Part shown: positions 41,756 through 47,156 of the stretch, piece after piece | Position numbering within the stretch: position 1 is the stretch's first letter | Layout of the letters: every line of letters starts with the position of its first letter | Source of the DNA: an uncultured Pseudomonadota bacterium | GTDB taxonomy: Bacteria; Pseudomonadota; Gammaproteobacteria; Steroidobacterales; Steroidobacteraceae | Reading direction: 5' to 3' | Length of the DNA: 64,000 nt | Assembly (NCBI GenBank): GCA_903927005.1 | Contig: CAIYLH010000036.1 | Span: 1 to 64,000, forward strand | Notes under the pieces: model-generated | Told to the model about the DNA's origin: nothing | Databases searched by the model: none | What the model saw: the letters and a program-made list of their open reading frames with translations, nothing else | Program-made: the position numbers and the translations under genes

Positions 41756-44146
<2,391 letters not shown>

Positions 44147-44240: not shown

Positions 44241-45311
44241 ATGAACCCCAACGAACTCAAAGCCCTTGCTGCTGCCGCCCTCGATCCGGCTCTGGGTCGG
44301 CCACTGGGCGAGGCGGTGACCTCGGTCCGGGCTGACGGCGCGGTGGCCGTGGTGGCCGTGACTTTGGGATATCCGGTGGGCGGCTATGCGCCGGAACTGG
44401 AGGCTGTGATCGGTGCGGCATTCGCCGCCGCCGGCTGGACCGGTAGCGTACGCGTCGAGCCCACCGCCCGGATTGCCGCGCACGCGGTACAGGGCAGCCT
44501 CAAGCCGTTGCCGAACATCCGCAACATCCTGGCCATCGCCTCCGGCAAGGGCGGTGTTGGCAAGTCGACCACGGCCGCCAATCTCGCGCTGGCGCTTGCT
44601 GCGCAGGGTGCCCGGGTCGGCCTTTTGGATGCCGACGTCTATGGTCCGAGCCAGCCGCTGATGATGGGGCTGGCCGGCGAGCGACCCAATTCCGTCGACG
44701 GCAAGCGGATCGAGCCGCTGCGGGCCTACGGCGTCGAGGTCATGTCGATCGGTTTTCTGATCGATCCGGACCAACCGATGGTCTGGCGCGGCCCGATGGT
44801 GACCCAGGCGCTGATGCAGCTACTCGGCGATACGAGCTGGGGTGACCTCGACTACCTCGTTGTCGATCTGCCGCCCGGCACGGGCGATATACAGCTGACG
44901 CTGGCACAGCGGGTTCCGGTCAGCGGTGCGATCATCGTCACCACGCCGCAGGACATCGCCTTGGCCGACGCGAGCAAGGGCCTGCAGATGTTCCGCAAGG
45001 TCGCCGTGCCGATCCTTGGCATCGTCGAGAACATGGCGATGCACGTTTGTACCGCCTGCGGCCACGAGGAGCATATCTTCGGGGCGGGTGGCGGCGAGAA
45101 GATGTCGCGCGACTATGGCGTGCCGGTGCTGGGCAGCCTGCCGCTGGACGTGCGCATTCGCGAACAGGCCGATAGCGGTCGACCGACGGTCGTCGCTGAT
45201 CCGGAGGGGCGTCTGGCCGGTGCCTATGGGCGTATCGCACGGCGGGCCGCAGCTATCCTTGCCGCGGGCGCAGGGGCTGCGTTCCCGACGTTGAGTGTCA
45301 GCGACGACTGA
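44241..45311 (+). CDS. apbC: Mrp/ApbC family iron-sulphur cluster carrier ATPase
   Basis: ApbC binds and transfers [4Fe-4S] clusters. The 356-residue protein has an N-terminal MIP18-like domain (1-85), the deviant Walker A SGKGGVGKST near residue 100, PPGTGDIQLT (switch II) and the cluster-binding CTAC pair near residue 270. A TAGAAT at 44202-44207 could be its -10 box, without a good -35. dcd follows after 54 bases. In E. coli the homologue mrp lies beside metG; here the pilus ATPase operon lies between them. Confidence 0.96.
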   Translation: MNPNELKALAAAALDPALGRPLGEAVTSVRADGAVAVVAVTLGYPVGGYAPELEAVIGAAFAAAGWTGSVRVEPTARIAAHAVQGSLKPLPNIRNILAIASGKGGVGKSTTAANLALALAAQGARVGLLDADVYGPSQPLMMGLAGERPNSVDGKRIEPLRAYGVEVMSIGFLIDPDQPMVWRGPMVTQALMQLLGDTSWGDLDYLVVDLPPGTGDIQLTLAQRVPVSGAIIVTTPQDIALADASKGLQMFRKVAVPILGIVENMAMHVCTACGHEEHIFGAGGGEKMSRDYGVPVLGSLPLDVRIREQADSGRPTVVADPEGRLAGAYGRIARRAAAILAAGAGAAFPTLSVSDD

Positions 45312-45365: not shown

Positions 45366-47156
45366 ATGAGCATCAAGTCAGACCATTGGATCCGTCGTCA
45401 GGCCGCTACCGGCATGATCGAGCCGTTCGAGCCGGGCCAGGTGCGCGAAATCGATGGCCGCAAGATCGTCTCGTACGGCACCTCGAGCTACGGCTACGAC
45501 GTGCGCTGCGCGGCCGAGTTCAAGATCTTCACGAACATCAATTCGACGATCGTCGATCCGAAAGCATTCGATCCGGCCAGCTTCGTCGACGTGAATGCGG
45601 ACGTCTGCATCATCCCGCCGAATTCGTTTGCACTCGCGCGCACTGTCGAGTACTTCCGGATTCCACGCAGCACGCTAGTGGTTTGCCTCGGAAAGTGTGT
45701 CACCGGCGATACGCGAGTCGTAGATGCGGAGACTGGCGCCTACCTGCCTATCACCGAGATGCGCTTTGGACGCAAGACTCTGGCCCTCGACAACTGGCGC
45801 TTGCAGCCCGCCTCCGTCACGGAGTTCATGGAGCAGGGACGCAAGCCCGTATTCGAGCTCCGGACGCGTTCCGGGCTGCGAATTCGTGCCACGGCCAATC
45901 ATCCGTTCCGTCAGCTCGACGGCTGGACGGCGCTCGAGGACCTGAAAGTCGGCGACCGTATCGCTGCGGCACGCGAGGTGCCCGTCTTCGGGCGTACGCA
46001 GCTGCCTGACTGGGAGGCGTCACTGCTGGGAATGATGATAGCCGAGGGGCAGTGCAGCACGCCGGGCTACAGCCCCGTGTTCACGACCGAGGATCCGGCC
46101 CAGCTGGCATTGCTCGAGACGTGCGTGGCGGCCGGCGGGCTCGGCGAGGTGACGCACAAGGGCGGCTTCGGCTATCGCCTGGTCAACCATCGTGGCCGCG
46201 GCGGTGTTCCGCAAGCCAATCGCGCGGCGCTCTGGCTGGAGAAGCACGCGCTCAACGTCGGCTCCGGCGACAAGTTCGTGCCGCAGGCGGTATTTACAGC
46301 ACCGCGCGAGTCCGTGCGGCTGTTCCTGCAGGCCCTGTTCGCCGGCGACGGCGGTCTCTATCGTCAGGGCGAAGGGATCTTCCTAGAGTACTACTCGAAG
46401 TCGCGCCGCCTGGTCGAGGACGTGCAGCATCTGCTGCTGCGTTTCGGCGTGCTCGGCGTGCTGCGCGAGAAGACGACGTCGATCGGCACGCCGGCATGCG
46501 CGGTGCAGATCACCGATTTCGACCAGATCGCGCGCTTCGCCGACCGCATCGGCTTCGTGCCGGGCTCGATCAAACAGCGTCGCCTGGAGACCGACATCCT
46601 GCCGCTGCTGGCGCGTGGGCGCCTGAAGAGAAATTTCGATACGTTGCCGCGCGAGGCGTGGCAGCTCATGCAGCGCGCTGCCGCCGGCGCCGAAATGAGC
46701 CTCAACTCGCTTGGAATTTTTGCGAACGCGCGGCAGTCGGTGCCGATGCGGCAGGCGCAGACCCTGTCGGTGGCTACTGGCGATGAGACGATGTCCGCGC
46801 TCGCCGAAGGGCCGCTGTGGGATGTGGTCGAATCCATCACGCCGGCGGGCGAGGAGGAGGTCTTCGACATCTCCGTTTCGCGCGTTCACAACTTTCTTGC
46901 GAACGGACTTATCGTTCACAATTCAACGTATGCACGTTGTGGAATCATCGTAAATGTAACGCCCTTGGAGCCCGAGTGGGAAGGACACGTTACCCTCGAA
47001 TTCTCCAACACGACGACGCTGCCGGCGAAGATCTACGCGAACGAGGGCGTTGCGCAGATGCTGTTCTTCGAGTCGGATGAGGTGTGCAGCACGTCGTACG
47101 CGGATCGCGCGGGCAAGTACCAGGGCCAGCGCGGCGTGACGTTGCCGAAGACCTGA
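45366..47156 (+). CDS. dcd: dCTP deaminase precursor interrupted by an intein
   Basis: The 596-residue open frame encodes dCTP deaminase (dCTP to dUTP, for dTMP synthesis) split by an in-frame 409-residue intein. The N-extein is residues 1-110 (to CLGK) and the C-extein is residues 520-596, beginning STYARCG. Joined, they give a 187-residue enzyme of the usual length, with the catalytic Glu in [11 protein letters not shown]. The junction lies directly before the conserved Ser-Thr-Tyr-Ala-Arg active-site segment, so unspliced protein should be inactive. A GGGG-rich ribosome site precedes the ATG. The gene probably shares a transcript with apbC. Confidence 0.96.
45696..46922 (+). mobile_element. 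Intein with LAGLIDADG homing endonuclease, inserted in dcd
   Basis: Residues 111-519 of the dcd precursor form a class 1 intein. Block A is CVTGDTRV with Cys111 as first nucleophile. Block B is RATANHPF with T176 and H179. Block F is [15 protein letters not shown], and the end is VHN. Ser520 is the +1 residue. Between them lies a DOD endonuclease with motifs LLGMMIAEG (Glu227) and LFAGDGG (Asp328), both acidic residues present, so splicing and homing both look intact. The bases right after the intein are unusually AT-rich for this genome. Confidence 0.95.

Follow-up and report, generated by a model that had tools for sequence, protein, structure and literature searches.

Inteins of dCTP deaminase (Dcd) have been described before. 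In cyanophage vB_AphaS-CL131 the intein of the dCTP deaminase gp069 (MG209611) was excised on expression in E. coli, and the available portion of that report assigns it an HNH_3 domain and cites intein-bearing dCTP deaminases in two bacteria, from the Proteobacteria and Chloroflexi (PMC6293099). A haloarchaeal dCTP deaminase intein, allele 'dtd', is represented by six sequences, all from Halobacteria, in the accessible part of its report (PMC4071816). In the MCM protein of Haloferacales, double MCM-a / MCM-d inteins home better into alleles already holding one, as stated in the accessible part of the source (PMC10643990).

Here we analyzed a dcd gene in a window of 64,000 nucleotides (assembly GCA_903927005.1, contig CAIYLH010000036.1, positions 1 to 64,000) from an uncultured member of the Steroidobacteraceae. 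The initial annotation had proposed a full-length intein in this gene and had pointed to dCTP deaminase as a target of inteins; the enzyme was already on record as an intein host (PMC4071816, PMC6293099). As dcd inteins are already in print, the window intein is a further case; more unusual are the pair of insertion sites and the tandem alleles in which both are filled. Like the window intein, the CL131 intein lies in the active-site segment of dCTP deaminase, but it is placed five residues downstream (STYAR|CG), has a Cys at +1 and a penultimate Lys, comprises 352 aa and belongs to a phage gene. We refer to the position of the window intein as site a and to that of the CL131 intein as site b.

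A predicted class 1 intein in the dcd frame

The dcd gene is a single open frame of 596 aa on the forward strand (45366-47156), directly downstream of an Mrp/ApbC-like gene (44241-45311, named from its sequence). The frame scores 129.4 bits against the dCTP deaminase equivalog TIGR02274 (cut-off 92.8). Alignment to the family and to 4dhk, the closest solved relative, delimits an N-extein of residues 1-110 ending VCLGK (45366..45695, forward strand, as are all features below). It is followed by the intein of 409 aa (C...HN, residues 111-519, 45696..46922) and by a C-extein of residues 520-596, which consists of the STYAR codons (46923..46937) and a remainder starting CGIIV and running through the stop (46938..47156). 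The joined exteins comprise 187 aa. Residues 1-111 align to residues 3-115 of 4dhk and residues 520-596 to residues 115-191, with a continuous junction, and intein-free homologues in 6 of 15 genomes of the genus are likewise continuous at this point. The proposal that a 187-residue dCTP deaminase remains once the insert is removed is borne out by both the TIGR02274 score and the 4dhk alignment.

The class 1 blocks assigned to residues 111-519 were all recovered by motifs and family cut-offs. Block A (45696..45734) provides the nucleophile Cys1, starts CVTGDTRV and is matched by TIGR01445 (intein_Nterm, 28.9 bits against a cut-off of 24.5). Block B (45873..45905) carries the TxxH motif as TANH, and its T66 and H69 are invariant in 14 aligned site-a inteins. 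Blocks F/G (46854..46922) end VHN and are matched by TIGR01443 (intein_Cterm, 30.3 bits against 15.6); the C-terminal HN with Ser at +1 (HN|S) is intact. Pfam Intein_splicing (75.3 against 35.8) and LAGLIDADG_3 (56.2 against 22.5) both match the insert. The two LAGLIDADG motifs, P1 (46023..46052) and P2 (46323..46352), are intact as annotated, with E117 and D218 (intein numbering), presumably the catalytic acids, both present. The GC content of the intein (~0.61-0.68) is the same as that of its surroundings. Both extein halves were matched at one place only in a search of the window's genome. Since intein-free dcd alleles occur in the same genus, the insert is not a chance feature.

An AlphaFold2 model of the 596-aa precursor, built on an alignment of 15 rows including the query, is confident over most of residues 110-520 (pLDDT 77-97, interrupted by short dips) and gives the exteins values below 50. 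The confident stretch stops at the motif-defined limits of the intein; the low extein values may merely be due to the likeness of the few alignment rows. A Foldseek search with the model ranked the TliVMA intein (7qss, E 4e-21) first and PI-PfuI (1dq3, E 7e-18) third, and DnaB mini-inteins matched the Hint part at lower ranks. A Hint fold is predicted for the window intein.

We consider it highly probable that the insert as a whole is a class 1 protein-splicing intein of a DnaB-like LAGLIDADG lineage, for which homing is possible. This full-length reading draws on the anatomy and motifs of the insert, its predicted fold, the empty alleles, purifying selection and a patchy distribution. Self-excision of the insert from the Dcd protein is very probable, in keeping with the excision of the neighbouring-site CL131 intein in E. 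coli (PMC6293099), and the endonuclease of the insert is possibly competent. We infer a course of splicing, DNA cleavage and homing in which the 596-aa precursor would be translated whole. Cys1 with His69 of block B would undergo an N-S acyl shift, Ser520 (the +1 residue and later the S111-equivalent of the enzyme) would accept the N-extein, and Asn519 with His518 would free the intein, giving the 187-aa Dcd and the 409-aa intein. The precursor is presumably inactive until splicing because the insert keeps the S111-R115 segment away from the N-terminal half. With its two LAGLIDADG motifs, the free intein may cut intein-free dcd around the GK|STYAR codons, and those alleles would be converted.

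Elsewhere in the same genome, a putative DnaB-like helicase (L002, contig C112, 27764-29092) contains a second LAGLIDADG-type intein with 32% identity to the Dcd intein, and a putative ribonucleotide-reductase-like protein (L003:223-3633, contig C4) has an apparent intein CVPTDT...HN|C. The window's genome may hold three inteins. Near dcd, positions 41756-44146 encode a 796-aa protein that appears to be a fusion of a HEAT-repeat domain and a serine/threonine protein kinase.

Position of the insert in the active site

The +1 Ser of the window intein aligns to S111 of E. coli Dcd, and STYAR to S111-R115 (52 of 174 aligned residues identical). The residues aligned to S111, R115 and E138, which we take to be the catalytic residues of the E. 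coli enzyme, are all present in the window Dcd, as in a dCTP deaminase. Because STYAR aligns to S111-R115, an insert at site a or at site b splits the active site as mapped by this alignment. If S111 is catalytic, the +1 serine would be both splicing nucleophile and active-site residue. The +1 serine of the DnaBi1 intein is a P-loop serine and is likewise doubly used, according to the available part of the report (PMC6195587).

The insertion point had been annotated as one of the most conserved parts of the enzyme, of the kind preferred by homing inteins. This stands at the protein level, where 34 of 180 eight-residue segments have a higher conservation score than site a, but not at the DNA level. 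Across 119 dcd genes, 343 of 538 segments are more conserved than the 24 bp around site a, which is average, and extreme DNA conservation was not found there. For the DNA of site b, the corresponding count is 43 of 538. The explanation of site preference by conservation is sound for the protein; conservation of the site-a DNA is only average.

A second, unrelated intein at site b

Comparison with other dcd inteins places the CL131 intein 15 bp downstream of site a. Site b lies between STYAR and CG, at the 46937/46938 junction; it is empty in the window and intein-filled in relatives and in phage CL131, where the junctions are GKSTYAR|CFTGDT ... FVKN|CGII. The window insert is not of the CL131 type, as it sits before STYAR and matches LAGLIDADG_3, and the site-b intein is unrelated to the site-a intein. 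Bacterial site-b inteins are related to that of CL131, and CL131 matches a query of site-b intein plus C-extein with 34.8% over 98% of the query. Six viral contigs (L311-L314, L327, L331) also have site-b inteins in their dcds.

For the bacterial site-b copies, a putative HNH origin is based on their homology to CL131 and on an H-N-H-like stretch that is visible in the sequence. The full-length site-b intein of G004 reaches 21.2 bits with Pfam HNH_3, under the cut-off of 24.8, and that of Halochromatium roseum has no Pfam HNH_3 match. Across 11 pairs of site-b inteins, dN/dS is 0.05-0.26 in the splicing part (computable in 8 of the 11) and up to 1.38 in the middle part, a contrast also seen in site-a inteins. 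Many site-b inteins lack the penultimate His and end in RN, KN, SN or GN (L110, L113, L132, L151, L216 and others); the CL131 intein ends KN and is excised in E. coli. Relatives of the site-b intein also occur within non-dcd viral proteins (L316, L318, L319, L322, L328), several of them before SKD or CAGW.

Distribution of the two inteins

Fifteen genomes of the genus, including that of the window (G000), were searched. Site a alone is filled in three (G000, G001, G003), site b alone in five (G004, G005, G010, G011, G014) and both in one (G007). The remaining six are empty (G006, G008, G009, G012, G013 and, from a contig fragment, G002). Among 217 genomes of the family, 12 have a only, 29 b only and 3 both, and 173 gave no match to either intein. 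The queries used for family, order and phylum start in the endonuclease part, and mini-inteins at site a could escape them; a mini-intein dcd as query over the family recovered the 15 site-a genomes again, together with three site-b ones.

In a sample of 396 genomes from the order, dcd matches were confined to the window's family, and in a phylum sample of 398 genomes only the window's genome matched. A class sample of 369 genomes gave 17 with a match, including three further site-b dcds; three other loci of this sample were inspected and had no dcd junction. A scan of named genomes (80 loci kept of 580 confirmed) recovered five site-a and six site-b dcd inteins, 7 of these 11 loci being sequence-identical to family members already counted. 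The four others are a Methylococcaceae MAG with a 317-aa intein at site a, two MAGs whose site-a inteins have 244 and 246 aa, and Halochromatium roseum, whose intein of 386 aa is at site b.

Searches of viral, phage and plasmid sequences found no dcd with a site-a intein. None of the 80 relatives kept from 127 viral ones has a dcd junction. No phage or plasmid source of this intein was found either, with 0 of 107 phage and 0 of 25 plasmid records with a match covering 80% of the precursor.

Tandem alleles with both sites filled

The tandem carriers G007, G105 and G080 represent three genera of one family, and only STYAR lies between their inteins. The frames are unbroken (843 aa in G007, 795 aa in G105 and 790 aa in G080), with two Pfam Intein_splicing stretches in each. 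An assembly artefact is unlikely given an unbroken frame in each of three genera, as judged from the assemblies. A structure model of the tandem precursor had a mean pLDDT of 40, too poor for use. The a elements of G105 and G080 retain both acids, next to b elements of 196 and 191 aa; the a element of G007 has lost its P1 acid and stands next to a b element of 263 aa. Full-length site-b inteins have ~375 aa, and each of the three tandem alleles has a shortened b copy.

In the intein-b tree the copy of G007 groups with three congeners (100/98) and that of G105 with its congener G095 (98/87). The a copy of G007 is joined to that of the window in the intein-a tree (95/98). Constraining the tandem carriers to one clade is rejected for intein a (p-AU 7e-36, 15 rows), intein b (p-AU 3.6e-5, 31 rows) and the exteins (p-AU 6.4e-6, 50 rows). 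The tandem therefore has either several origins or a single ancient one that was followed by many losses. The extein tree needs a minimum of 9 changes, undirected, for each of a and b. Two site-b sequences with a STFAR variant (L165, L167) were left out of all trees, and CL131, L119, L110 and L034-L036 were left out of some. The number of double carriers (3 of 217) is as chance gives (Fisher p 0.47), in a count that takes in all 173 no-match genomes, whether or not their dcd is complete. Neither exclusion of b by a nor attraction between them is supported by this test.

The b-occupied allele of G007 has the same first 18 bp after site a as the b-free allele. These are the STYAR codons and the Cys codon that opens both the b intein and the C-extein. 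A typical LAGLIDADG target spans ~22 bp. The 18 bp after site a would suffice for half of such a target, and because they are unchanged the a element could still recognise a b-occupied allele. The spacing of the sites may in this way explain the formation of double alleles, as the sequences suggest.

We lean towards a reading in which the short stretch coding the dcd active site, a few dozen bp, is contested by two homing inteins of unrelated descent, a LAGLIDADG element and an element of HNH origin. With their sites 15 bp apart, each would still be able to enter an allele occupied by the other, and the two would splice as neighbours across a STYAR mini-extein. The tandems of the three genera would have arisen repeatedly, or a single time long ago followed by many losses, and none would have more than one intact-looking endonuclease. 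If true, dcd offers a natural system for splicing order, cross-splicing and homing interference between different endonucleases.

Selection, decay and inheritance of the site-a intein

We computed dN/dS for 12 pairs of site-a inteins, with many dS values near saturation and ratios that are rough. With values of 0.06-0.17, every one of the 12 pairs shows purifying selection on the splicing domain. The endonuclease domain has values of 0.05-0.11 in six pairs within genera g7 and g15, in which both acids are kept (one member, G182, keeps them in an intein shortened to 370 aa). It has values of 0.25-0.63 in five pairs with an acid lost in at least one member, and of 0.30 in the distant pair G000/G080, with both acids kept. 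Pairs that include G000 range over 0.30-0.63, the partner being decayed or distant. Both LAGLIDADG acids are kept in 10 of 18 distinct site-a inteins. As the P1 acid is lost in all three other site-a inteins of the window's genus (G001, G003, G007), the endonuclease appears to be decaying there.

In genus g15, dS between G028 and its congeners G089 and G109 is 1.08-1.44 for the intein and 0.36-0.41 for the extein, which suggests that the intein moved apart from its host gene between G028 and these two. An excess of intein dS is absent between G089 and G109 and between G000 and G007. For the latter pair, extein dS (0.76) and intein dS (0.75-0.88) are about equal, which fits vertical inheritance in the G000/G007 lineage rather than recent homing.

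These patterns bear on a special case of the splicing intein, in which the element splices, its endonuclease no longer homes and it persists as a fixed, vertically inherited passenger. This would predict the equal dS that intein and extein show between G000 and its sister G007, as well as the loss of the P1 acid in three congeners, but the G000 intein retains both acids and its 409 aa. We regard it as a serious possibility, a little short of probable. An improbable alternative is that the insert acts as a conditional splicing switch, for example by redox trapping of Cys1 with Cys -4 (CLGK|C), tying deaminase activity to the state of the cell. All 18 distinct site-a sequences have Cys -4, but so do 95% of 119 dcds, regardless of intein state. 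The +1 nucleophile aligns to an active-site serine of the enzyme, as in a DnaB intein described as under oxidative control in the accessible part of the source (PMC6195587); yet 173 of 217 family genomes have no match to either intein, and so no visible need for such a switch.

We find it hardly credible that the insert stays unspliced and that the 596-aa protein is an active enzyme with an additional stable domain. The insert interrupts the conserved core immediately ahead of the S111-equivalent, dcds with and without the intein occur side by side, and no splicing residue varies among the aligned site-a inteins; we found no evidence in support of this alternative. A class 1 splicing intein with possible homing remains our preferred explanation.

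Comparison with known systems

Neither site a nor the five-residue tandem was found in the open-licence literature on dcd, neighbouring or tandem inteins. The window intein adds an insertion point at the dCTP deaminase serine aligned to E. coli S111, and all four states (empty, a, b, a+b) are available for comparison among close relatives. This makes it testable how neighbouring inteins with sites 15 bp apart and different endonuclease families invade, coexist and splice. Two inteins with a five-residue spacer make the tandem alleles both a splicing problem and a tool.

By sequence, the closest family to the window intein is that of the DnaB-type LAGLIDADG inteins (NCBIfam NF005852, 223.8 bits over residues 111-521), from which it differs in host protein and insertion site. 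With the haloarchaeal 'dtd' intein, as covered in the accessible text (PMC4071816), it shares the host protein. The two dcd sites resemble MCM-a and MCM-d of Haloferacales, for which the available part of the report describes two close sites, four occupancy states and doubles in several lineages (PMC10643990). Among the relatives of each tandem carrier are single-a or single-b alleles, which is in line with the MCM finding. MCM-a and MCM-d are, in the same source, both LAGLIDADG elements, whereas the dcd pair combines a LAGLIDADG intein with a relative of the HNH-type intein of CL131. The dcd tandems further differ from the MCM doubles in their five-residue spacer and in a b intein that is shortened in every case.
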